From Desulfobacterales bacterium (GTDB taxonomy: Bacteria > Desulfobacterota > Desulfobacteria > Desulfobacterales > JARGFK01): DNA of 52,276 nucleotides. This document shows positions 9,501 through 52,276 of this stretch, piece after piece. The position numbers and the translations under genes were made by a program. The notes beneath the pieces were generated by a model. That model ran no database searches and was not told the DNA's origin. It saw only the letters and a program-made list of their open reading frames with translations. Each line of letters opens with the position of its first letter. The stretch's first letter is position 1. Location: assembly GCA_029211065.1 (NCBI GenBank), contig JARGFK010000020.1, positions 1 through 52,276 on the forward strand, read 5' to 3'.

Positions 9501-10649
9501 TCAAAAATACTTTTGCGGAACACACACATATCCTTCCATCAGACGCCGGGCGGTACGCCCCACGACAGCCTCGACATATTCGTATGCATTCCCGTTTCTA
9601 TTAACCTTGACGCCGATCTCCATGACCCCGCCGGGATGGCCGATCCGGATGGTTTCGGCTTGATCGTCGCCGCCGAACATCTCATTGACGATCGTGCCTT
9701 TGATTTTTGCCGCCCCGGCCGTGCAGATAGCACCGGTGCCGGCATAGGCTTTGTGAAGCTCCCCCATGGATATGATCCGCCCCACCAGATCGATCTCATT
9801 TTTCCGGACCATTTTGCCGGTAATGGTTTGATAATCCCAAGGCTTGCTTACAAACGCAATTTTGGGGACTGCCTGCACTTTTTCCGTAGCTTCCTGGGGA
9901 GACGACGCCATGCCGATCATCACTGCTGTCATACTGCGAATGGACTCCAGTGTTTTCCGGATGTCGGCCGAAGCATCGATCTCATGAATCTCTATCCCTT
10001 TCAGCCCCAGATCGGCAGCCCGCACAAACACGATGGGATTGGCGGCATCCACGATGGAAACCACCATCTTTCCGAGCCCGGACACATCAACCGTATCGAC
10101 CACATTTCCGGTGGGCAGCAGCCGGCCGGTTACTGACCCGCCCGGGTCCACAAAGTGAAGCGCAATTTTTGCACCGGTTCCGGGAACACCGTCGATGGTG
10201 TAATCGCCGCTTTCATCGAACCGGCCGTCTCTGACCGGAACCTCCGCCACGATACGTTTCTTGGTATTGACCTGATAGATGCGGACTTGGGTTAACGGCT
10301 CCTGGGCTTTTACCAGGTCCTCGTCAACGGCGAACGGACCCACCGCTGCTGAAATATTGCCGCAATTCCCCCGGAAATCAATCAGGGGGCTGTCAATGCC
10401 GACCTGCCCGAAATTGTAATTAACATCATAATCCGGATCATCAGCAGGACTGATGATGGCCACTTTGCTGGTGCTGGAAACCGCACCACCCATCCCGTCG
10501 ATCTGGCGCCGGTTGAGGTCAGGGCTGCCATAAGCCGCAAGGATGACGCGATCCCGGACTGCCGGATCTTTTGGCAGATGGTTTTCATGAAAAAACACCG
10601 CCTTGCTGGTGCCGCCCCGCATGAAAACAGCCGGTATTCGTTTTTGCAT
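9501..10649 (-). CDS. PrpF-family (aconitate-type) isomerase
   Basis: 382 aa with the start at 10649, which has GGAGA just upstream and gives the family N-terminus MQKRIPAVFMRGGTSKAVFF. Family marks: RGGTSK (11-16), the loop GMGGAVSSTSKVA, and the central FRGNCGNISAAVGPFA motif with the conserved Cys, followed by a second similar domain. The family moves double bonds in unsaturated tricarboxylates (2-methylaconitate cis-trans isomerase, 4-oxalomesaconate tautomerase). Methylitaconate delta-isomerase of anaerobic nicotinate degradation also belongs here. No propionate (prp) genes are nearby, so a catabolic role at the end of the adjacent island is more likely than the methylcitrate cycle. Exact substrate unknown. 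Confidence 0.87.
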   Translation of the reverse strand: MQKRIPAVFMRGGTSKAVFFHENHLPKDPAVRDRVILAAYGSPDLNRRQIDGMGGAVSSTSKVAIISPADDPDYDVNYNFGQVGIDSPLIDFRGNCGNISAAVGPFAVDEDLVKAQEPLTQVRIYQVNTKKRIVAEVPVRDGRFDESGDYTIDGVPGTGAKIALHFVDPGGSVTGRLLPTGNVVDTVDVSGLGKMVVSIVDAANPIVFVRAADLGLKGIEIHEIDASADIRKTLESIRSMTAVMIGMASSPQEATEKVQAVPKIAFVSKPWDYQTITGKMVRKNEIDLVGRIISMGELHKAYAGTGAICTAGAAKIKGTIVNEMFGGDDQAETIRIGHPGGVMEIGVKVNRNGNAYEYVEAVVGRTARRLMEGYVCVPQKYF

Positions 10650-10708
10650 CGAGGGTCTCCCTATCGCCGAACTTGAATACATGTTTTTCATAATTACGGT
10701 GACGTTCT

Positions 10709-11744: not shown

Positions 11745-14000
11745 TTACCTTTTTGCTTCTTTCAGCATTTCAAGAATCCGCTCCTGGCCGGCGGGCAGAT
11801 CTGTTATCTTTAAGCCGACTGCGTCACGAATGGCATTTAAAATCGCTGCCGCCACCGGCGTCACCGTAACTTCACTGAACCCCTTGGCGGAAAAGGGTCC
11901 GCTCGGTTCTTCTGCTTCAACAATACGGGCCGACAAAACGCCCGCATCCATGGAAGTCGGTATTTTATAATCGATAAAATTCGGATTGGTGATCACCCCG
12001 GACGCAATCTTAATTTCCTCCAGCAGGGCGTAACCGATACCCATACTGGTCCCGCCATGAATCTGGCCTTCGACGCTTTGGGGATGAATAGCTTTGCCGA
12101 CATCCACAATATTGACCAGTTTGTCAACTGTAATTTTTCCGGTTTCTGTGTCCACTTCGACTACGGCAACCCCGCCGGCAAAAGAATAGGTGCCGCAGGG
12201 GCTTCCCAATCCGCACTCAGGATCCAGCGAAGCGGTGCGGGGAATAAAGTCCCCCACCCCCGATATGCCCTGCATGTAATTTTCCTTTAAAATATGGGCA
12301 ACGCTTATCTTGTTCTCAGGATTACCGTCGACAACCACCATGCCGTTTTTGAGTACCATCTTTTCCACCGGCACATTCAAATGGATAGAAGCTTTTTCGA
12401 ACAAAGTCGCCTTTACATTCCGGGCCGCCAGTTGAACCGCTTTGCCGGATATATACGTCACCCGGGAACCGGAAGTGGATTCGCAGTCCGGCGTCATGTC
12501 CGAATCGGTTGTCATTACCCTGATTTTTTCCAGGGGTACGCCGAGTTCCTCTGCCGCGATCTGGGCAAAGATGGTATCAGACCCCTGACCGATATCCACC
12601 GAACCGCAAATGACGGTGGCGCTGCCGTCAATGAGCAGGTTCACATAAGCCGTTCCCTGGGACCCTCCCCGGGTGCTGCCGATACCGTGATAAGCCAGCC
12701 CCACCCCGACGCCGCGCATTTTTCCGGGTGTTCCGGCAGACGTTTGCGACTTTATTGAATCAACAACCGCCCGGACAGTCTTTAAAACCTCCGGCATCCC
12801 CACACTGTCTTCCAGAATCTGGCCGGTTGCAGTTGAAGATCCGACCCTTAAAATATTTTTTTCCCTTAATTCGATGGGGTCCATGTTCAGCTGCCGGGCC
12901 AGTTCATCCATCTGGCGTTCATGGGCCAGTGCCCCCTGGGGTCCGCCGTATCCCCGCATAGCGCCACAGTTGGGATTGTTGGTATAAACCACGTACCCAT
13001 CAATTTTAACATGGGGGATGTCATAAGGACCGGCCGCCTGAATGACGGAGCGGGCCAGCACGCCTTTTCCCACAACCATGTAGGGGCCGGTGTCGCTTGT
13101 CATGGTGACTTCAATGGCCTTGATCCGTCCGTCCCGGTTCGCCCCGGTTTTATAATGGATGATATAGGGATGCCGCTTGGTGGTGGTCAGGATCGATTCA
13201 TCCCGGGCATAGACCACTTTCGCCGGCCGCCCGGTTTTAAAGGCCAGCAGGGCCGCATAACAGGGACACAGGCTCCATATCTTGCCGCCGAAGGCCCCGC
13301 CGGTAACCATCTGAATAATGCGAACCCTGTTCTGACTCAATCCCAGCATGGCGGCGATGGCCCGGCAATCAAAATGGGTATGCTGGGTGCTGGCCCAGAC
13401 TGTGATATTGCCGTCCCCTTTCATTTCGGCAACGGCCGATTCAGGTTCAAGGTAGGCATGCTCAACCCGCTGGGTCCGGTATTCACCCTCCACAATGATA
13501 TCGGATTCCGCAAAACCTTTTACGATATTTCCTTTACGGATTTTAATGTAGTCCGCCAGATTGCCCCCGGCATGAATGGCGGGCGCTCCCTCTTTTTGGG
13601 CGGCCATGGGATCGAAAACCGCTTCAAGTGGTTCGTATTCAACCTGGATTAAATCAAGAATTTCTTCAGCCGCCGCTTCCGTCTGGGCGCCCACCAGAGC
13701 CACCCCTTCGCCATAGAAATTGACTTCCGCACCCGCCAGAATCGGCTGATCGGCAATCATGGGGCCCATGGCATTCTTTCCGGGAATGTCCCGGTGCGTT
13801 AAAACCGTCACCCCGATCGCTGAGGCTGCACGGGAAGTGTCTATTTTCAATATCTTTGCCCGGGGATAAGGACTGCGTAAAACCTTGCCGTAAATCATAT
13901 CATGAAAATGCAGATCGTTGGCATAGACCGCTTTTCCGGTTGTTTTACTTTTCGCATCGATCCGCGGAACGCTGTGACCGACAACGGCAAGGTTGTTCAT
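11745..14000 (-). CDS. xanthine dehydrogenase family Mo-binding (large) subunit 1
   Basis: 751 aa molybdenum hydroxylase large subunit. Visible are the aldehyde oxidase/xanthine dehydrogenase a/b hammerhead domain (residues 1-130), then the cofactor-binding domain with GGAFGGK (234-240), GAMRGYGGPQ (346-355) and VDIGQGSD (468-474), and the catalytic Glu710 in AKGFSE. Such subunits hydroxylate N-heterocycles or aldehydes with water and pass electrons to FeS and FAD subunits. Neither partner is adjacent; the only small and medium subunit genes in the window are at 24670 and 25436. It diverges from the two other large subunits (18141, 22364), for example in the MRGYGGP loop, so a different substrate is likely. 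Cytoplasmic; no Tat signal. Confidence 0.9.
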   Translation of the reverse strand: MNNLAVVGHSVPRIDAKSKTTGKAVYANDLHFHDMIYGKVLRSPYPRAKILKIDTSRAASAIGVTVLTHRDIPGKNAMGPMIADQPILAGAEVNFYGEGVALVGAQTEAAAEEILDLIQVEYEPLEAVFDPMAAQKEGAPAIHAGGNLADYIKIRKGNIVKGFAESDIIVEGEYRTQRVEHAYLEPESAVAEMKGDGNITVWASTQHTHFDCRAIAAMLGLSQNRVRIIQMVTGGAFGGKIWSLCPCYAALLAFKTGRPAKVVYARDESILTTTKRHPYIIHYKTGANRDGRIKAIEVTMTSDTGPYMVVGKGVLARSVIQAAGPYDIPHVKIDGYVVYTNNPNCGAMRGYGGPQGALAHERQMDELARQLNMDPIELREKNILRVGSSTATGQILEDSVGMPEVLKTVRAVVDSIKSQTSAGTPGKMRGVGVGLAYHGIGSTRGGSQGTAYVNLLIDGSATVICGSVDIGQGSDTIFAQIAAEELGVPLEKIRVMTTDSDMTPDCESTSGSRVTYISGKAVQLAARNVKATLFEKASIHLNVPVEKMVLKNGMVVVDGNPENKISVAHILKENYMQGISGVGDFIPRTASLDPECGLGSPCGTYSFAGGVAVVEVDTETGKITVDKLVNIVDVGKAIHPQSVEGQIHGGTSMGIGYALLEEIKIASGVITNPNFIDYKIPTSMDAGVLSARIVEAEEPSGPFSAKGFSEVTVTPVAAAILNAIRDAVGLKITDLPAGQERILEMLKEAKR

Positions 14001-15869: not shown

Positions 15870-17303
15870 TTATTTCGCCGGAAAAAGATCCGGAAATTTC
15901 TCTTTGACCGTCCGGATCTGTTCATCGCTCGGTTTGACCACCGGTGCAAAGGTTTTCAATTTTTCCCAGGGCCGGCAGGCGTCGATAACCATGCGTGAAT
16001 TCAACACACGGGAATCGTCGGGATAGCTCATGGGATCCAGACGGGTGCTCCAGCAGCGTTTCAGAATCTCCACATCCTCGCGGGGATCGGTGCGCGTGCA
16101 GATCGCCCACAGAACCTGATTGGTGTTGGAGGGATCAATATCATCATCCACGACAATGCTCAGACGGTTGGCATATGCGCCGGACTGGCATTGCGACGCC
16201 ATCAGGACCACCTGCTTGGAATGACCCGGATACAGCTGTTTGATGGATGTCGTCAGCATAAACCGTCCGCCGCCGGCTTCATGGGCCCAGACCCCCTGAA
16301 TCCCGGGGATTCCGGCTTTCTCAAGCTCGTCCAGAACCGCCGCACTTCTTAAAAAACTACGGTAATAGCAGTCATCATTGGGCGGAATCCGGGGCATGGC
16401 CCCCAGCATGATGGGGTCGTTGCGATGGTAAACCGCCAGGGTCGTGATCCTGGGCTGGGGTTTGCTGCCGCCGGCATAATACCCGGTCCGCTCGCCGAAA
16501 GGCCCTTCTTTTTCCACCAGGTCATCCGGGCGGATTTCTCCTTCAATCGTTATTTCCGCTGTTGCCGGCAGCGGCAGGCCTGTTCTGGGGCCTTTCACGA
16601 TCTCCACCGCTTCGCCCCTGATCCCGCCGGTGACATCATATTCACTGGTGCCGTAGGGGATCTCCATCCCCCCCACCAGGTACAGCAGAATGTCCTGGCC
16701 GAATGTAATGGCCACCGGGCAGGGCTCGCCTCTGTCAAAGTATTTCTGCATGATAATGGCGCCCTGCTTCCCCTTTGAGATCATCACGGATAGGGTCTTG
16801 GGATCATGCACCTGCACCCGGTAGACACCCAGGTTGACCCATTCCGAATCCTGATCCTTCATGATGACCAGACAGCCGGTCCCCATGAACCGGCCCCCGT
16901 CAAGCTCGTGCCATATCGGGGAGGGAAATTTCAGCAGATCGATAGCGTCCCCTTCCTGGACATTCTCGAAAATCGGCCCGCCATTAACCGTCTTTGGCGG
17001 AACCAACTTAGCGCTGCGCAAATATCTCAGCCAGGCCCGGATTAAATCCTGGGCGTTCGACTCCGGCGGCATCCCCAGAGTATGGGCCACCCGCTTAATG
17101 GACGTCAATGAATTGGCCAGGATCCTGAACCCCGGCGGATACCCTTTTATCTTGTCAAAGAGAAGTGCCGGCAGCCCCATCTCCTCCTGGTAAATATCGG
17201 CGATCGTTCCGATCTCCAGATTCCAGTCCGCGCCCTCCACATGCTTGAGCTCGCCCATGGCATCAATTTCATCGATCCACTGTCGGCAGTCATGAATACT
17301 CAT
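15870..17303 (-). CDS. UbiD family decarboxylase 1
   Basis: 477 aa, the length expected for UbiD enzymes, which use prenylated FMN to (de)carboxylate aromatic or alpha,beta-unsaturated acids. The NLGVYRVQVHD segment (R162) and PATAEITIEGE (E250, E254) correspond to the region of the catalytic Arg/Glu residues, and EGPFGERTGYY is the family loop. The prenyltransferase UbiX that supplies the cofactor is not in this window. The neighbours are a Pht5-like protein and a cupin. It is about as long as UbiD 2 (20751) but clearly diverged, suggesting two different decarboxylation steps or two subunits. Confidence 0.9.
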   Translation of the reverse strand: MSIHDCRQWIDEIDAMGELKHVEGADWNLEIGTIADIYQEEMGLPALLFDKIKGYPPGFRILANSLTSIKRVAHTLGMPPESNAQDLIRAWLRYLRSAKLVPPKTVNGGPIFENVQEGDAIDLLKFPSPIWHELDGGRFMGTGCLVIMKDQDSEWVNLGVYRVQVHDPKTLSVMISKGKQGAIIMQKYFDRGEPCPVAITFGQDILLYLVGGMEIPYGTSEYDVTGGIRGEAVEIVKGPRTGLPLPATAEITIEGEIRPDDLVEKEGPFGERTGYYAGGSKPQPRITTLAVYHRNDPIMLGAMPRIPPNDDCYYRSFLRSAAVLDELEKAGIPGIQGVWAHEAGGGRFMLTTSIKQLYPGHSKQVVLMASQCQSGAYANRLSIVVDDDIDPSNTNQVLWAICTRTDPREDVEILKRCWSTRLDPMSYPDDSRVLNSRMVIDACRPWEKLKTFAPVVKPSDEQIRTVKEKFPDLFPAK

Positions 17304-18140: not shown

Positions 18141-20462
18141 TTAATCATGTTTTACTTTAAGACCCTTCAGGACTTTCTCCGGCGTGATGGGCAGGTCTTT
18201 AATGCGAACCCCGACGGCATCATAAATGGCGTTGGCAATGGCCGGCGCCACCGGCACCAGGGAAATTTCGCCAAGGCCCTTGGCCCCGTAAGGTCCCTCC
18301 CGATGGGGTTCTTCCACCAGTATGGCCTGGATCTCGGGGATGTCCAGACTTCCCAATATCTTGTAGTCTGAAAAAGAGGGATTCAGGAGTCGACCCTTTG
18401 CGCCAAAGCGCATTTCTTCGATCATACAGCCCCCCATGGCCTGTATAAAACCACCCTGGATCTGCCCCAAGCAGTTTGACGGGTTGAGCGCCCGGCCGAC
18501 ATCATGGGCCGCGAAAACCTTCTTCACGCTGACCTTGCCGGTATCCGTATCAACGACAACCTGAACCCCGTGAGCGGCATACTGCCAGCAGAGCGACGGC
18601 TCGACTTCGAGTTTAACATGTTCGGGGACTTTGCCCGGCCAGTAATGGCAATAATTCCCTCTCCCCATGATATTGGCGCCGCCGGCATAGGTCATCTGGA
18701 TAAAATCTTTCAAGGACATCCGGCTTTGGGGATGGGTCGTGTCGGAAATTGTGCCGTTTTCCAGGATCAGATGGCTGCGGTCTGTTTTAAAAATACGTTC
18801 GGCCAGGGAGAATAGCTGGTTTCTGATGTCCCGGGCAGCTTCTTTAACGGCATTACCCATAAAAAAGGTCGTCCGGCTGGAAGTGCTGGCCGGAAACATC
18901 GGGGTGGTGTAAGTGTCCGGCGGCATGACCCGCATGTTCCGGATGTCGATACTCAACTCTTCGGCCACAATCTGACAAAGGACGGTGTTGATGCCCTGCC
19001 CCATTTCAGTGGAGCTTACCAGGATATCGGCGCCGCCGTCCGGACTTAATTTTACAAACGCGTCCGCACCTGATGGCGTCCGTGAAATTTTATACCCGCA
19101 GGCAATGCCGGATCCGGTCTTCAGGTTTCCACGAACCGTCGCCTCGGTTTTGCTTTTTTTCATATGCGTCCGTACCTGATGGAGGCATTCTCCCAGGCCC
19201 ACGGCATGGTGGGCCGTCTTTTCAGTTCCGGACACATAGCCTTCATCCACGATGTTCTTCAGCCGGATTTCAACCGGATCCATTCCCAGCTTCCGGGCAA
19301 TGATGTCCATTTGAGAATCATGCGCCCAGCAGACCTGGGGAATCCCATATCCCCTGAAGGCGCCCCCCGGCGGTTTATTGGTATAGATGAGCTGTCCCTC
19401 CACCTTTACGTGGGGGATTTTGTAGGGACCGATGACCGCGTAGCGGCCTTTTCCCAGAACCGTGGCCCCCCGGTCGCAGTAGGCGCCGTTTTCATAAATT
19501 AAAATTGCATGGCGGGCGATTATCGTTCCGTCCTTTTTCACACCGGTCTTTAAGGTAATCCGGGCGGCATGCCGGGTCGTGGTGGAGGTAAACTCTTCCT
19601 GCCGGGTCAATAAAAACTTGACCGGCCGGTAATTGGCCTTCCATGCCAGGGGCAGGCCGGCGATCAGGCCGGTCATTCTGATTTTGGTGCCGAACCCGCC
19701 GCCCACATACGGCGGAACGACAATTCGGACCTTGCTGGGCGGGATATTCAATGCTTCGGCCACATTGCTGCGGGCGCCGTAGGGCGCCTGATCGGACGTC
19801 CAGATAGTGACGCCGCCGTTATGGTGAAACTGCGAAATGGCGGCACGCGGCTCCATGGCGGTGTGCTGGATGATCTGGGTCGTAAAGGTGTCTTCAAAAA
19901 TATGGTCGGCTTCCCTAAAACCCTTTTCAATATCCCCGGCTTCGATAACCGTCCGGTCGCAGATATTAGACCCGGCCAGGGGATTCATATTGGCGGAGCG
20001 TTTGTAGTCCATGAGGTTTTCATGGATGACGGGCGCATCGGCCTTGAGCGCATCGTCAAGGGACAAAACCGGCGGGAGTTCTTCGAGTTCTACAACGAGC
20101 AGGTCGATGGCCGCTTCCGCCGCTTCCTCAGAGGTCGCCACAACGCCGGCAATGGCTTCGCCGGCAAAACGAATGCGGTCCACAGCCAGAAAGGGCTGAT
20201 CTTTCATGGGGTTGCCGCAGAGGGGATTGGAAAAACGTTCGGCAAACGCTTTGCCGGTTACCACAGCCCTGACCTCCGGAACTTTTTCGGCCAGGGACGT
20301 ATCCACAGCGAGTATTCTGGCATGGGCCACGGTGCTGCGTTTCACCTTGCCGTAGAGCATACCGGGAAAGCGCAAATCATTGACAAACTGGGCCTGGCCC
20401 GTGACCTTATCGATTGCGTCTATCTTAATCAGCGGTTTGCCGATGGATTTGTATTCGACCAT
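18141..20462 (-). CDS. xanthine dehydrogenase family Mo-binding (large) subunit 2
   Basis: 773 aa. It has the a/b hammerhead start (SIGKPLIKIDAIDKVTGQAQFVNDLRFPGMLYGK), then GGGFGTK, GGAFRGYGIPQ and STEMGQGINT in the Mo-cofactor domains, and catalytic Glu732 in AKGLGE. It is closer to large subunit 3 (22364) than to subunit 1: both end with nearly the same run VGVRIKDLPITPEK. This suggests a duplication followed by divergence, or an L/M-like pairing. No FeS or FAD subunit of its own is present. It lies 62 bp upstream of the cupin gene in transcription order. Confidence 0.9.
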   Translation of the reverse strand: MVEYKSIGKPLIKIDAIDKVTGQAQFVNDLRFPGMLYGKVKRSTVAHARILAVDTSLAEKVPEVRAVVTGKAFAERFSNPLCGNPMKDQPFLAVDRIRFAGEAIAGVVATSEEAAEAAIDLLVVELEELPPVLSLDDALKADAPVIHENLMDYKRSANMNPLAGSNICDRTVIEAGDIEKGFREADHIFEDTFTTQIIQHTAMEPRAAISQFHHNGGVTIWTSDQAPYGARSNVAEALNIPPSKVRIVVPPYVGGGFGTKIRMTGLIAGLPLAWKANYRPVKFLLTRQEEFTSTTTRHAARITLKTGVKKDGTIIARHAILIYENGAYCDRGATVLGKGRYAVIGPYKIPHVKVEGQLIYTNKPPGGAFRGYGIPQVCWAHDSQMDIIARKLGMDPVEIRLKNIVDEGYVSGTEKTAHHAVGLGECLHQVRTHMKKSKTEATVRGNLKTGSGIACGYKISRTPSGADAFVKLSPDGGADILVSSTEMGQGINTVLCQIVAEELSIDIRNMRVMPPDTYTTPMFPASTSSRTTFFMGNAVKEAARDIRNQLFSLAERIFKTDRSHLILENGTISDTTHPQSRMSLKDFIQMTYAGGANIMGRGNYCHYWPGKVPEHVKLEVEPSLCWQYAAHGVQVVVDTDTGKVSVKKVFAAHDVGRALNPSNCLGQIQGGFIQAMGGCMIEEMRFGAKGRLLNPSFSDYKILGSLDIPEIQAILVEEPHREGPYGAKGLGEISLVPVAPAIANAIYDAVGVRIKDLPITPEKVLKGLKVKHD

Positions 20463-20750: not shown

Positions 20751-22181
20751 TCAAAAAAGCTCTTTGAACTTTTCCGTCAATTTCCCTTTCAACTCCTCGC
20801 TGACGCCCACCACCGGCGGGAAATCCCCCCGCAGGACGCGGTGATAAGGCCGGCAGGCATCCACCAGTATCCGGTTATTGTAGTTGCCGAATTCCGGCAG
20901 GACCAGGGGGTCTCTTCCGGAAGACCAGGCCTTCCTGATGATGTCGATGTCTTCAACTGCATCCACCCGGGTGGTCATGGCCCAGAGGACCTGATCGATG
21001 TCGGACGGATCAATATCTTCATCCACCACCACCACCCATTTCCCGTTGTAGGCGGCCGCCTGAATGGCGGATGAGGCCACGTGCAGAACCTGACGGGCGT
21101 GCCCGTGATAGCGCTGCTTTATGGAAATCACCAGAAACCGGACGCCCATGCCGGCCTCATGCTGCCAGACGCCCCTGACCTCCGGGATGTCGCACCTGTT
21201 CAGGTTCTCCCAGATCGCGGCGCTTCCGGTAAAGGATTTAAGCAGGACGGTTTCGTCAATGGGTTTATGCTGGGGCGCGCAGCATAGTATGGGGTCGTTG
21301 CGATACATAATGGATTTAACCCGGACATAGGGCCGCCTTTTAGCCTGGCTGCAGTAATAACCGGTCCATTCACCAAAGGGGCCTTCCTCTTTTTTATCCC
21401 CGGGGAATGTATCCCCCTCGATCACAATTTCAGCCGACGCCGGTATGGGAAACCCGGTGTACGGGCCCCGGACCACCTCAACCGCTTTTCCGCGTACACC
21501 GCCGGCAAAATCCAGTTCAGAGATATTCTCCGGCACCGGCGACGCCCCCAGCATGTAAAACAGCGGGTCCTGCCCCACCATGATGGCCACCTTCATGGGT
21601 TTGTCCTGGGAAAAGTACTTGTCACGATGGATGCGGCCATGCTTTCCGCCGGTAATCTGCAGGCCGACGGTTTTTTCATCATATACCGTTGAACGATACG
21701 TCCCCAGGTTGTACCATTCCCTGTCAGGGTCCCGGGTAATCACCGCACAGGCTGTCCCGATATAACGGGCCTTGTCCCGTTCATGGTGCCGCGGGCTGGG
21801 AAACTGCAAGACATTGACATCTTCCCCCGTCTGTATATTTTCAAGGACCGGCCCGTCCTTAACGAATTTAGGAGGGATGGGCTGGAGACTGTTGATTTTT
21901 TCCTGATAGGCCCGGACCATGTCAATCCGGTTTTGGTTCAACGGCAGGCCCAGGGTCAACGCCACCCGGTTGGGGGTGCTGAAATGGCCGTACAGCGTCC
22001 GAAAGCCTTTGGGATAATCCGGAATTTCGTCAAACAGGAGCGCCGGCGTGCGGGTCTTGTACTTTTCATGCATGAGCTGGGTCAGCGGCCCCATTTCCCG
22101 GTCCCAGTGGGCCCCGCTGATCCGTTTCAGTTCGCCGATACTCTCCACCTGCTCCAGCCACTCTCTCAGGTCCACGTACAT
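20751..22181 (-). CDS. UbiD family decarboxylase 2
   Basis: 476 aa. It carries the same family marks as UbiD 1: NLGTYRSTVYD (R163), PASAEIVIEGD (E251, E255), EGPFGEWTGYY, and the C-terminal VVVDEDIDPSDIDQVLWAM. prFMN-dependent. It stands between the large subunits 2 and 3, so hydroxylase and decarboxylase genes alternate in the island. A reverse (carboxylase) function is possible, as UbiD-type enzymes also carboxylate phenol-like substrates in anaerobes. Confidence 0.9.
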   Translation of the reverse strand: MYVDLREWLEQVESIGELKRISGAHWDREMGPLTQLMHEKYKTRTPALLFDEIPDYPKGFRTLYGHFSTPNRVALTLGLPLNQNRIDMVRAYQEKINSLQPIPPKFVKDGPVLENIQTGEDVNVLQFPSPRHHERDKARYIGTACAVITRDPDREWYNLGTYRSTVYDEKTVGLQITGGKHGRIHRDKYFSQDKPMKVAIMVGQDPLFYMLGASPVPENISELDFAGGVRGKAVEVVRGPYTGFPIPASAEIVIEGDTFPGDKKEEGPFGEWTGYYCSQAKRRPYVRVKSIMYRNDPILCCAPQHKPIDETVLLKSFTGSAAIWENLNRCDIPEVRGVWQHEAGMGVRFLVISIKQRYHGHARQVLHVASSAIQAAAYNGKWVVVVDEDIDPSDIDQVLWAMTTRVDAVEDIDIIRKAWSSGRDPLVLPEFGNYNNRILVDACRPYHRVLRGDFPPVVGVSEELKGKLTEKFKELF

Positions 22182-22363: not shown

Positions 22364-24673
22364 TCAGTCTTTCTTTTCGACCCCTGGCCCCTGATCACTG
22401 ACCCCTTCCTTCATCGCCTTCAGCAGCTTTTCCGGCGTAATGGGCAGATCCTTGATCCGTACCCCAACGGCGTCATAAATGGCATTGGCAATGGCCGGCG
22501 CAATGGGCACGGTGGTCATCTCGCCCAGGCCCTTGGCGCCCCAGGGACCCTCGCTGCAGGGCACTTCAACGATGATCGGAATTATCTCCGGAATATCCAT
22601 GGCCGTCGGCAGCTTATAGTCCAGAAAGTTCGGATTGCGGACTTCGCCCTTTGCGCCGATGAGCATTTCTTCCATCAGAGTGGGCCCCAGTCCCTGGATG
22701 ATCCCGCCTTCGATCTGCCCTTCACAGGCGTTGGGATTGATGGCCTTGCCCACGTCGTGGGCGCCGACAATCTTTGTCACGCGCACCTGTCCGGTTTCAA
22801 TATCCACCTCGACCTCGACATAATGGGCGCCGTACATCCAGAAAATACTGGGGGACGACCAGGGCCCGGCGCAGACGCCTTCGTCGTCGGGATGATACGA
22901 CCCCCGGCCGATGATATCGATCCCGGCCCGGCATTGGTTTTTAAGCACATCAGCATATGACATCCGATTTGTTTTGTTCTTGAGCACAAACACACACCCC
23001 GTTTCAATGCCTAGCGCCGTTGGCTGCTCTCCCAGTACCTGGGCGGCAATTTGAAATATCTGGTCCCGGACGTCTCTGGCCGCGTTTTTAACGGCATTAC
23101 CCATATGAAAGGTGCTTCTGCTGGAGGTGGTGGACGCGTCATAGGGGGTGATGTCTGTGTCCGGAGTGGAGACGGTAATCGCCGCCACCGGAACCCCTAT
23201 CTCCTCGGCCACCATCTGGGCCAGGATGGTTTTGGCTCCCTGGCCGATTTCAACGGTGCTGGTGAGCAGCTCAACGCTGCCGTCCTGGCTGACCTTGACA
23301 ATGGCGGATGACCCGGACGGAGTTTTGGTGTTCTTGTATCCGCAGGCAAACCCTTTGCCGTGAAACTTTTTTCCGGGTTCTTCCCAGCGGACGTCCGCTG
23401 TGGCTTTTTCAATGCATTCGGTCAGGCCGACGCTGTTAAGGATCTGCTGGCCGGTGGGGGATATATCGCCCTCGCGGACGGCGTTCTTCAGGCGGATTTC
23501 CACCGGGTTAATACCCAGTTCCGCGGCGATGATGTCCATCTGGGATTCATGGGCCCAGGCTGCCTGGGTATGGCCGTATCCCCGAAATGCGCCGGCAATG
23601 GGCCTGTTGGTATAGACGCAATAGCCGGTCACTTTGACGTGGGGAATGTTATAAGGTCCGGCCGCAGCAGTGCTGGCCTGCTGGCAGACCGTCGGCCCTT
23701 TTTCGGAATAGGCGCCGGTATCGTAAATGAGATCCACTTCCCGCGCCAGAATCCGGCCGTCTTTTTTAACGCCGGTTTTCATTTTAATGACGCTGGGATG
23801 CCGCACCAGCGACGACGTAAACACCTCTTCCCGGGTCAACACCATCTTGACCGGACGTCCTTTGGTTTTCAGGGCTAGGGCAATGCAGAGGGTCTCGACC
23901 TTCAACCCGCCCTTTGCGCCAAACCCGCCTCCCATATAAGGGGGAGAGATCACCCGGATTTTTTTCAACGGAAGGCCCAGCGCTTCGGCCAGATCTTTGC
24001 GCAGCCGGTGCGGTCCGTCATTGGTCACCCATATGGTGATGCTGCCGGAGGCATCGACCCGGGCAATGGCCATATGGGGTTCGATGGCGCCGTGCTGGAC
24101 CATCTGGGTGGTGAAGGTGTCTCTAAAGATGGCATCGCTTTCGGCAAACCCCTGTCCAATGTCGCCTTTGATAAAACTTACATGGTGGCAGATATTGGTC
24201 CCTGCTATCGGTTGAATCACGGGTAGATGATGATAGTCCCCTAAACGTTCATGCACCAGGGGCGATTTTGGCGCCATGGCTTTTTCAGGATCCACCACAA
24301 CCGGCAGCTCCCGGTATTCAACCCGTATCAGGTCAAGCGCCTTTTCAGCGATTTCCACTCTTATCGCCGCCACCACTGCCACCGGTTCGCCGGCGTAGCG
24401 CACCTTTTCCACTGCCAGAAAGGGATAATCCTTCAGGGCCTCGCCCCCCAGGGCCTGGATGTCTTTACCCGTCACAATGGCTTTTACGCCCGGCAGGAGC
24501 AGGGCTTCACGGATATCGACAGCGACGATTTCGGCGTGGGCAAACGGGCTCCGCAGGGCCTTGCCGTAAAGCCCCCTGCTGAAATCCATATCGTCACCGA
24601 AAACAGCGCTGCCGGTAACCTTTTCAACCGCATCGATTCGGGGAATCGACTGCCCGACGGATAATTGCTTCAT
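22364..24673 (-). CDS. xanthine dehydrogenase family Mo-binding (large) subunit 3
   Basis: 769 aa. N-terminal hammerhead domain (VGQSIPRIDAVEKVTGSAVFGDDM), then GGGFGAKGG, GAFRGYGHTQ and STVEIGQGAKT, and catalytic Glu718 in AKGLGE. The start codon overlaps the stop of the 2Fe-2S subunit gene (ATGA, 24670-24673), so the two are translationally coupled and form the core of one enzyme. With the FAD subunit at 25436 this makes a standard three-subunit heterotrimer. The other large subunits probably borrow the same small and medium subunits or use products encoded elsewhere. The last ~15 residues (SDQGPGVEKKD) are an unconserved tail. Confidence 0.92.
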   Translation of the reverse strand: MKQLSVGQSIPRIDAVEKVTGSAVFGDDMDFSRGLYGKALRSPFAHAEIVAVDIREALLLPGVKAIVTGKDIQALGGEALKDYPFLAVEKVRYAGEPVAVVAAIRVEIAEKALDLIRVEYRELPVVVDPEKAMAPKSPLVHERLGDYHHLPVIQPIAGTNICHHVSFIKGDIGQGFAESDAIFRDTFTTQMVQHGAIEPHMAIARVDASGSITIWVTNDGPHRLRKDLAEALGLPLKKIRVISPPYMGGGFGAKGGLKVETLCIALALKTKGRPVKMVLTREEVFTSSLVRHPSVIKMKTGVKKDGRILAREVDLIYDTGAYSEKGPTVCQQASTAAAGPYNIPHVKVTGYCVYTNRPIAGAFRGYGHTQAAWAHESQMDIIAAELGINPVEIRLKNAVREGDISPTGQQILNSVGLTECIEKATADVRWEEPGKKFHGKGFACGYKNTKTPSGSSAIVKVSQDGSVELLTSTVEIGQGAKTILAQMVAEEIGVPVAAITVSTPDTDITPYDASTTSSRSTFHMGNAVKNAARDVRDQIFQIAAQVLGEQPTALGIETGCVFVLKNKTNRMSYADVLKNQCRAGIDIIGRGSYHPDDEGVCAGPWSSPSIFWMYGAHYVEVEVDIETGQVRVTKIVGAHDVGKAINPNACEGQIEGGIIQGLGPTLMEEMLIGAKGEVRNPNFLDYKLPTAMDIPEIIPIIVEVPCSEGPWGAKGLGEMTTVPIAPAIANAIYDAVGVRIKDLPITPEKLLKAMKEGVSDQGPGVEKKD

Positions 24674-29364: not shown

Positions 29365-30417
29365 TTAAATGTTTACGGCTGCAGTCCGGGCCGCTCTGCC
29401 GCGCAGCTTGCAGCCGCAGGATTCCCGGATCACCAGCTTCGATTCCAGCACAACTTTATGGATATAATCCCCTTCCTTGTTTTCGATATAGTCGATCAGG
29501 ATCTGGACGCCCAATCCCCCCATGGTATATTCGCGCTGACTGACCGTTGTCAGGCGGATCCGCTGATTCGACGCAAACTCCGTATCGTCAAACCCCACCA
29601 GGGCAAGGTCATCCGGTATTTTCAAACCCAGTTCTTCGGTCGCGTCGAAAACGCCCATGGCGATATAATCGCTACCGCTGAAAATGGCTTCGGGCTTTTC
29701 GGCCATCAGCAGCAGCTTTTTGGCGCCTTCATAACCGGTTGCCCGGGCAAAATTGCCCTGGAATATGTAATCGGGCCGGATGTCGATGGCATGATCCTTC
29801 AAGGCCCGCTGATATCCCTTTAACCGCTCCAGGCCGGTGAATACATTGGAGGGCCCGTCGATAATCGCAATTTTCTTGTAACCGAGGTCAATGAGATGCT
29901 TGGTAATATCATAGGCGCCCTTGAAATTATCCAGAACCACGTAACTGTAGTTTTCGCTCTTGAGTTTTCGGTTGACCAGCACCAGAGGAAACCGTTTTTC
30001 AATCAGTTTTTCCACTGCGGGCTCGTGCAGGCGGGAAGAGGCAAAGATGAATCCGTCCACACCCACATCGAGCATGAGATCGACATAGGAATCCATCCTT
30101 TCGGGTTTGTGATCGGTGCTGCAGAATATGACATTATATCCGACCTGATGCGCTTTATCTTCAATCCCCCTGGCCAGGTCGCCGTAGAAGGGATTGCGAA
30201 TATCGGTCACCACCAGCCCGATGATCTTGGATTTTTTCAGGGCCAGGTTGCGCGCCCGGGCATCCGGTTTAAACCCCAGTTTTTTGACAAGGCCCAATAT
30301 GCGCTTTTTAGTCTTGTCCTGAACCCTGGGATCGTTATTCAGCGCACGGGAAACGGTGGTGTGCGACACCTTTGCCATGCGCGCGATGTCCCGGATGGTC
30401 ATGCTGTTTTTGGGCAT
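29365..30417 (-). CDS. LacI-family transcriptional regulator
   Basis: 350 aa. An N-terminal LacI HTH (MTIRDIARMAKVSHTTVSRALNND, about residues 6-29) and hinge helix are followed by a type I periplasmic-binding-like sensor domain (KIIGLVVTDIRNPFYGDLARGIE..., DGFIFASSRL, SDYIAMGVFDATEELG, LVGFDDTEFAS). Full-length. It heads the minus-strand island, so it is the likely repressor of it. A perfect 22-bp palindrome 42 bp upstream of its start (30459-30480) has the shape of a LacI-family site and suggests autoregulation. Effector unknown. Confidence 0.92.
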   Translation of the reverse strand: MPKNSMTIRDIARMAKVSHTTVSRALNNDPRVQDKTKKRILGLVKKLGFKPDARARNLALKKSKIIGLVVTDIRNPFYGDLARGIEDKAHQVGYNVIFCSTDHKPERMDSYVDLMLDVGVDGFIFASSRLHEPAVEKLIEKRFPLVLVNRKLKSENYSYVVLDNFKGAYDITKHLIDLGYKKIAIIDGPSNVFTGLERLKGYQRALKDHAIDIRPDYIFQGNFARATGYEGAKKLLLMAEKPEAIFSGSDYIAMGVFDATEELGLKIPDDLALVGFDDTEFASNQRIRLTTVSQREYTMGGLGVQILIDYIENKEGDYIHKVVLESKLVIRESCGCKLRGRAARTAAVNI

Positions 30418-50643: not shown

Positions 50644-52276
50644 TTAGAATACAATCAAATGTGACTTGCCGGATAGACATCCGTTTTTGAACTCCGGTGT
50701 GATAATCTTTTTTTCCTCAAAATATCTTTTGGCACCCGTATGCAGCGGGATCGTAACGCCCCGCAGAGAATTCTTGAAACAGTACTCGGCGCCGGCAGGG
50801 TGCTCTTCGGCTATTTCATCCGTATGTTCCAAAATAGATTTTACAACCGAATAAACGGCGTCTTCACCGACTTCTTTATGTGTAATCAGGATGCAGGGGA
50901 CGCCAAGGGTCGGGATACTTACGTTCTGTTGCGGATAGGTATTCGGTGATATCGCAGAATAAGTCCAGTAGGGACACTGCTCAATGATATCATGCAACTT
51001 TTCAGTTTCGATGGGAAGAAATGAGATAGCGGTTTTTTTAGAAAATGCCGAAAGGGCGCTGCTCGCACCGCCGGACAAATAAAAAACCGCATCGATCTTG
51101 TCTTCATTCAAAGCTTCAATCGCATTGGAAATGGATAAAATTTGGGGCATTATATCGGTTTCGGCTATATCGTAACTCTCCAGAACAATCCGCGAAACCC
51201 ACTGGCTATCCCCGCCGGTTGCCCCTAAAGCTATTTTTTTACCTTTAAGATCTCCTATCGTTTCAATTTTATTTTTCTTCAAGGCAAAAATCTGTATGTC
51301 TAATTGATGCGCACCGCATACAGCCCGAATATTTGAGTAACTTTCCGCAAATTCACGACTCCCCCGATATGCATTAATTGCGACGTCGGATTGTGTTATG
51401 CCGAGTGCGATTCGTTTTTGTCCTGTAAGGATGACGTTCTCTATCCCGCCACCGGTGAGTTCAGCTTTGGCTTTAAGCCAGCTATATCGGTTGATTACCT
51501 TGGACAAAGCACTGCCCACAGAGAAAAACGTTCCAGCGACACTTCCGGTCCCCAGGGCGTCACAATAGATAATGAGGTCGGCCATTCTCTGTGATTGAAC
51601 ATCTTGAATGTGTTCTTCCATGATCCGGCGGGCTTTTTCATTGTTTTTGTTCTTGATCGCCTCGAAAATCTGCTGATGATAATTGCGCGCCTTTTCGATC
51701 CCTCCGGGCATGCGTTGGGTTAAATTTTCATGAAAAAGAAGCAGCTCATTTAAAATATTCAACAGTTCCTGCAATACCAAATTTTTGCCGGCCTTCGCGA
51801 TACAGCTATGGAACTCAACATCCTTTCTTAAAAAAGCTTCTGTATTGTTTTCTTTAAGCGCAGTGTCCATTGCCTGCAGCAGAGATTCAAGCTCCTTGAA
51901 GTCCTGCGCGTCCCCTCTTTCAACGGCATTGGCTACTGTAATGGATTCAATATATTTTCTGGCCTCAAACAGATCAGATAAAGTCGTCCCTTTGGTGATC
52001 AGCCGTGGCGATAGAATTTTAAGGTAATTTGAAATCTGAGGTGTGGCGACAATGGTCCCGAGACCATGTTTTATACGAATTATTCCCTTAGCAGAGAGCT
52101 GTTGAAGACCCTCTCTTAATGAAGCTTTGCTGACCCCCAGCTCTTGGGTAAGTTCTTCGTGGGAAGGAAGTTTATCACCTTCTTTAAGATTCATTTCCAG
52201 GGTGCTGTCAAGTTTTTTGTGTAAAATTTTTATCAGCCAGTTTTTTGAAGAATGGCAGATTCTTGCGCACTTTTCC
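50644..52276 (-). CDS. GntR/FCD regulator fused to a TAXI solute-binding domain (5' partial)
   Basis: The frame runs from the stop at 50644 past the first in-frame ATG (52194) to the window edge; residues before that ATG (NWLIKILHKKLDSTLE) look like the first GntR helix, so the true start is probably outside. Counted from 52194: GntR winged helix 1-50 (DKLPSHEELTQELGVSKASLREGLQQL), FCD domain about 70-203 with metal-site residues D125, H129, H173 and H195, then a complete TAXI-family binding domain 207-505 (LGTGSVAGTFFSVGSAL, LTGGGIENVILTG, IALGITQSDVAINAYRG, DLKGKKIALGATGGDSQWV, IPLHTGAKRYFEEK). No signal peptide, so cytoplasmic. It heads the TRAP operon. Domain calls firm; the fusion is unusual. 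Confidence 0.9.
   Translation of the reverse strand, partial: EKCARICHSSKNWLIKILHKKLDSTLEMNLKEGDKLPSHEELTQELGVSKASLREGLQQLSAKGIIRIKHGLGTIVATPQISNYLKILSPRLITKGTTLSDLFEARKYIESITVANAVERGDAQDFKELESLLQAMDTALKENNTEAFLRKDVEFHSCIAKAGKNLVLQELLNILNELLLFHENLTQRMPGGIEKARNYHQQIFEAIKNKNNEKARRIMEEHIQDVQSQRMADLIIYCDALGTGSVAGTFFSVGSALSKVINRYSWLKAKAELTGGGIENVILTGQKRIALGITQSDVAINAYRGSREFAESYSNIRAVCGAHQLDIQIFALKKNKIETIGDLKGKKIALGATGGDSQWVSRIVLESYDIAETDIMPQILSISNAIEALNEDKIDAVFYLSGGASSALSAFSKKTAISFLPIETEKLHDIIEQCPYWTYSAISPNTYPQQNVSIPTLGVPCILITHKEVGEDAVYSVVKSILEHTDEIAEEHPAGAEYCFKNSLRGVTIPLHTGAKRYFEEKKIITPEFKNGCLSGKSHLIVF

Follow-up and report, generated by a model that had tools for sequence, protein, structure and literature searches.

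A GntR/FCD-type regulator fused in frame to a leaderless TAXI domain in two families of one bacterial order

Why would a GntR-type regulator that already has an FCD ligand domain also carry, in the same frame, a TAXI domain of the kind found in the binding proteins of TRAP transporters, and does such a protein exist outside one assembly? The question is raised by the end of the window, the whole stretch of DNA analysed here (52,276 nucleotides), which is one entire contig (G000:C20:1-52276) of a 4.94-Mb Desulfobacterales genome in 269 contigs. An open frame on the minus strand (50644..52275) runs to the contig edge and comprises 543 codons, or 516 residues when counted from its first ATG at 52194. 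The domain search proposed in the preliminary description of this locus revealed, in the residue numbering of the 543-residue frame, a GntR-type winged helix-turn-helix (wHTH) at residues 28-76 (52048..52194, minus strand; PF00392, E 6.1e-12), an FCD ligand/metal domain containing D152, H156, H200 and H222 at residues 101-224 (51604..51975, minus strand; PF07729, E 5.1e-27) and a TAXI/NMT1_3 domain without a leader at residues 241-522 (50710..51555, minus strand; PF16868, E 9.3e-65), all above their curated cut-offs and in the order claimed. The description was also correct in placing HTH-FCD and TAXI in one frame, with no stop at either the GntR-FCD or the FCD-TAXI junction. Its statement that both parts are complete holds for FCD (profile positions 1-124 of 125) and TAXI (positions 1-288 of 289), whereas the GntR match (45.5 bits against a cut-off of 27; positions 16-64 of 64) is nearly complete, with the first 15 positions unmatched. 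The NCBIfam TRAP_TAXI model (TIGR02122) scored 228 bits against a cut-off of 84.35, NMT1_3 and NMT1 were the only Pfam matches to the C-terminal half at E <= 0.001, and the best NCBIfam regulator matches (NanR, LldR, PdhR and GlcC) all fell below cut-off. By the domains tested, the fused protein is a GntR/FCD regulator.

A scan of one genome per species across 84,980 species returned exactly one close relative, CP070652.1 (G272 in our whole-genome collection, with its regulator locus designated L025), a metagenome-assembled, single-contig chromosome whose source belongs to the same order as the window's bacterium and to another family. The three domains recur in its protein in the same arrangement. 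Identity to the window protein is 67%, and 470 residues align without a gap from the HTH through the junction into the TAXI domain (identity by domain: HTH 82%, FCD 66%, TAXI 64%). With dS saturated between the two fused copies, we quote differences at codon positions 1/2/3 instead of a dN/dS ratio: these are 0.25/0.16/0.61 in TAXI and 0.27/0.19/0.54 in FCD, values by which the two domains look similarly constrained, the TAXI domain being kept about as strictly as FCD. Because two families keep the same junction, a chimeric contig is excluded, and from this comparison the fusion looks like a real, kept design.

The fusion is rare. Draws of genomes (overlapping one another and including the window's own genome) yielded CP070652.1 as the sole further genome with matches to both halves in the class draw (389 genomes, E up to 1e-60), in the order draw (389 genomes, E up to 1e-42) and among 373 genomes of the order with a completeness of at least 70%; the phylum draw (395 genomes, E up to 1e-42) contained none with both halves beyond the window's own, further draws of 1 and 8 genomes added no member, and the remaining matches listed from the draws cover essentially one half of the fusion. 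At least 80% of the query was covered in none of the 1151 matching plasmid records and in none of 27 phage records, and a scan of viral contigs for alignment depth found one TAXI relative and no FCD relative. Other phyla were reached through the 84,980-species scan alone, which detects close relatives only. Seven matches in long frames were inspected and rejected as fusions: in six cases (G003, G146, G102 twice, G029:C3 and G057:C45) a TAXI match in a frame of roughly 500 or more codons is directly preceded by a hydrophobic leader, and for a GntR-FCD match in a 624-codon frame (G029:C30) the ORF stops about 25 codons past the match. The known members number two, each from a fragmentary or metagenome assembly, and a description of the GntR-FCD-TAXI order was not found in the open-access PMC literature searched.

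We then compared the region before the TAXI domain with that of free-standing TAXI genes, taking the highest Kyte-Doolittle mean over 13 residues within the 60 residues that precede the domain. This value was at least 1.9 in 58 of 62 free-standing loci (45/45 and 13/17), the other four comprising one at a contig edge (G486), one masked and two matched only inside the domain, whereas it is 0.47 and 0.67 in the fused pair, bearing out the earlier claim that the TAXI part has no signal peptide; the hydrophobicity maxima of the pair (2.07 and 1.75) sit deep within the TAXI domain. A fused DctQM permease, with which TAXI-type TRAP systems pair, was not found beside the fused TAXI, the window's transporter being of the DctP type with separate DctQ and DctM. 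Since export and permease pairing were both tested and neither was found, the fused protein is not a TAXI transport protein. A TAXI tree of 62 rows (60 free-standing sequences, including the close matches G486 and G739 that an earlier 47-row tree had left out, and the fused pair) united the fused pair in one clade (100/100), as the 47-row tree had done, nested in a five-row clade (97/90) with the TAXI sequences of G541, G486 and G739, among which the sister of the fused clade is unsure (94/54); in G541, the TAXI gene is followed by a gene for a DctM-type permease. The simplest account, we infer, is that an exported TAXI solute-binding protein shed its leader and was joined once to the C-terminus of FCD in a regulator.

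Structure prediction, also proposed in the preliminary description, covered the TAXI domain and the full-length protein. A TAXI-only model had a pLDDT of 59, with blocks between residues 91 and 230 at 70-94, and despite this weakness a Foldseek search recovered the TAXI fold: the top seven matches (E 8e-20 to 4e-16) were chains of TAXI or "immunogenic" proteins, with TM 0.63-0.72 and an rmsd near 5 A to the weak model. The full-length model, built from two sequences, was poor (pLDDT 45) and was set aside. The fused domain thus resembles the TAXI proteins of TRAP transporters (VcGluP, 8S4J; TtGluBP, 1US4) in its near-full-length match, its Foldseek fold and several pocket residues, and differs from them in being leaderless and placed behind a DNA-binding regulator.

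The genes around the two regulators overlap in part. In the window, a gene for a xylose-isomerase-like TIM barrel (AP_endonuc_2, PF01261; 49757..50623, minus strand) begins 20 bases downstream of the regulator and overlaps by 4 bases the gene for a DctP-type TRAP solute-binding protein (PF03480; 48765..49760, minus strand); 59 bases past dctP comes the DctQ small permease (PF04290; 48184..48705, minus strand), and then the DctM large permease (PF06808; 46913..48187, minus strand), the listed ORF of which runs to 48388 and the likely start of which, ATG 48187, gives a 4-base overlap with the dctQ stop. The regulator had been described as heading a DctPQM operon: the three transporter genes do lie downstream on the same strand, but not directly, as the TIM-barrel gene intervenes. 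In CP070652.1, the TIM-barrel gene also directly follows the regulator (the two TIM barrels are 43% identical) and past it lie convergent genes whose products resemble glycolate oxidase GlcD, a lactate racemase and an Fe-S protein, each below its NCBIfam cut-off. No TRAP gene was detected among the 12 other ORFs scanned at L025; close relatives of DctP (76%) and DctM (83%), with a DctQ between them, are found 1.24 Mb from the regulator. The neighbourhood comparison that had been suggested therefore retains the TIM barrel and drops DctPQM: the unit shared across both genomes is regulator plus TIM barrel, and regulation of the transporter in trans is possible, as is a linkage confined to the window genome.

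This layout bears on the further proposal that the TAXI domain reads the substrate imported by DctPQM, a link weakened by the distance in CP070652.1. DctPQM also has a DctP of its own. Because this DctP belongs to a class without sequence similarity to TAXI (as stated in the available part of PMC12344293), the TAXI domain does not seem to derive from the neighbouring transporter. The TIM barrel gave weak matches to sugar and sugar-acid epimerases, and CbiR and endonuclease IV matched about equally. Together with the FCD relatives NanR, LldR, GlcC and PdhR and the YiaMN-like permeases, the TIM barrel would point to sugar or hydroxy acids, all of these matches being below cut-off.

Searches for regulatory sites recognised no convincing operator by shared upstream 20-mers or by the strict and looser patterns. 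The strict pattern TNGT-N3-ACNA occurred twice in L025 (2.8 expected), both times distant from the regulator; a looser FadR-type pattern gave one candidate 7-of-8 match about 150 bases before the L025 regulator start, and no match in the partly masked region upstream of the CP070652.1 transporter. The best shared upstream 20-mers were 16/20 identical among the matches listed, again in a partly masked region, and promoter-like and terminator-like sites numbered 7 (9.4 expected) and 8 (5.4 expected), respectively.

On this evidence, the fused protein is probably a one-component regulator of the GntR/FadR (FCD) type, located in the cytoplasm and equipped with an acquired second pocket, for organic acids. 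Its winged helix would bind an operator as a dimer mediated by FCD, the FCD pocket with its Asp/His/His/His site would accommodate a metal together with a sugar acid or small carboxylate, and the TAXI domain would close on a second (or the same) ligand, altering DNA binding. The likely target would be its own operon, that is the sugar-acid-type TIM-barrel enzyme and, in the window genome, the DctPQM importer. A bolder proposal, which we put forward tentatively, is that the two proteins belong to a new, small family of regulators with two pockets, whose cytoplasmic TAXI domain could act as an allosteric Venus-flytrap on the FCD sensor and respond to two metabolites, or to one at two affinities.

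Whether both pockets are likely to be in use can be judged from their residues. All four FCD metal-site residues (D152, H156, H200 and H222) are present in both fused copies, with a spacing equal to that of N144, H148, H192 and H214 in the Ni site of Ps5454 (from the accessible portion of PMC7674646). For TAXI, we mapped by alignment the pocket residues of VcGluP that are named in the available text of PMC11574862, which singles out Q93 and Y45 and reports Y45A and Q93A as severe mutants. Kept in the fused domain are S40 (S245), Q93 (Q295), H123 (H323), Y200 (Y399) and G203 (G402), altered are Y45F (F250), S75G (G277), E125L (L325), G156D (D356), D157S (S357) and M201L (L400), and V44 and Y46 correspond to T249 and F251. 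At 12 of these 13 positions the two fused proteins are identical, compared to 64% domain-wide (binomial p 0.026), a modest signal because core and pocket positions are conserved in general. It is unlikely that TAXI is a folded, ligand-free add-on (a dimer brace, scaffold or protein-interaction surface) with FCD doing all the sensing: the intact FCD site and the loss of Y45, S75 and E125 from the TAXI pocket would suit such a protein, but the retention of the Q93, H123 and Y200 equivalents and the identity of the pocket between the copies argue against it, and the exchange at position 45, where alanine is so harmful in VcGluP, is conservative and retains an aromatic residue. Quite unlikely is the converse, that TAXI is the true inducer pocket and FCD is left with dimerisation only; AraR, with a GalR/LacI-type domain behind its GntR-type head (according to the part of PMC4494728 available), suggests that a GntR head can work with nothing but a binding-protein fold, but the FCD metal site is complete in both copies and FCD identity is as high as that of TAXI. 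The residues fit a live TAXI pocket with a ligand other than glutamate: in VcGluP, E125 contacts the amino group and S75 the alpha-carboxyl, both contacts are lost in the fused domain, and since L325, G277 and F250 stand in place of E125, S75 and Y45, a hydroxy, keto or sugar acid appears more likely than glutamate. The two-sensor reading of the preliminary description is upheld in part: the regulator has two complete sensor-type domains and no leader, occurs in a second family, and keeps a full FCD metal site and part of a TAXI pocket.

Both copies of the gene have a blemish. The 5' end of the window gene falls at the contig edge: no ATG, GTG or TTG occurs upstream of 52194 in the regulator frame up to that edge, and GntR profile positions 1-15 are unmatched whereas the CP070652.1 copy matches positions 2-64. 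A second frame over the last ~48 bases at the contig edge (52210-52276, minus strand) reads GKVRKNLPFFKKLADK, has a GTG and resembles a GntR N-terminus; a slipped frame or an error of assembly in an A/T run at the edge is possible, and the GntR profile did not separate three readings of the edge (49.5, 49.2 and 49.1 bits). In the CP070652.1 copy, an in-frame TAA close to the C-terminal end of the TAXI domain (L025 9411-9413) would cost about 50 residues, including about 27 TAXI profile positions, the match without the codons after the TAA stopping at profile position 262 of 289. These blemishes could be sequence errors or recent breaks. That they mark a once functional fusion decaying into a pseudogene in both lineages seems very unlikely, for although the TAA, the missing start codon and the GntR-like alternative frame all favour decay, the 470 codons without a gap and the strong constraint on codon positions 1 and 2 since the copies split oppose it, the window's problem lies in the last bases of the contig and may be an assembly error, and about 50 homologous or open codons continue beyond the TAA, extending the match to query residue 498 or 499. 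An assembly or gene-fusion artefact of one genome can be virtually discounted; the rarity of the fusion, including its absence from the plasmid and phage records, would be expected of one, but the junction recurs, at 67% identity, in a single-contig chromosome from another family. The preliminary description had named the lack of any homologue with this domain order as grounds for suspecting an artefact, and CP070652.1 carries that order.

Regulators of the GntR/FadR subfamily with FCD (NanR, LldR, GlcC and DgoR) resemble the fused protein in having a wHTH and an FCD with metal-site residues, and the fused protein adds a complete TAXI domain after FCD, roughly doubling its length. The C-terminal domain of AraR binds the effector. 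AraR joins a GntR-type DNA-binding region to a C-terminal domain homologous to GalR/LacI (available portion of PMC4494728), and like AraR and LacI-type regulators the fused protein places a periplasmic-binding-protein fold inside the cell behind an HTH and, by analogy, would work alike; it differs from AraR in that its binding domain is TAXI (NMT1_3), not of the GalR/LacI type, and in that FCD lies between, giving two candidate pockets. Binding-protein domains as regulator sensors are in general known already: many domains under solute-binding-protein (SBP) Pfam signatures, in a list including PF16868, serve as sensors in kinases or transcriptional regulators, according to the accessible text of PMC9602780, which offers a general parallel and in that text does not name a GntR-FCD-TAXI protein. 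TAXI fusions outside classical TRAP transporters likewise include the TAXI-GltS fusions of Lachnospiraceae and BP0403 (accessible part of PMC12344293), which are extracytoplasmic transporter parts, whereas the fused protein here is a regulator. If our reading is true, nature would here have converted the binding protein of a secondary transporter into a gene switch inside the cell, a parallel to LacI and AraR that is drawn from another class of binding proteins and stacked on a regulator already with a pocket, and two-input sensing in one regulator would become testable. Hand-built biosensors in which the LacI DNA-binding domain was joined to the binding proteins SiaP or SatA (available text of PMC13188862) would then have a natural equivalent in this protein.

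Elsewhere on the contig, the minus strand between 9501 and 24673 encodes three molybdopterin-binding large subunits of the xanthine dehydrogenase (XDH) type (Pfam; 11745-14000, 18141-20462 and 22364-24673), with which two UbiD-type decarboxylases (15870-17303 and 20751-22181) alternate, and a PrpF protein nearby (9501-10691); this is possibly, as a guess, an aromatic or heteroaromatic degradation cluster. The same contig also encodes, at 29365-30417 on the minus strand, a conventional LacI-type regulator that has a periplasmic-binding-protein-like domain, the classic parallel to the fused protein.
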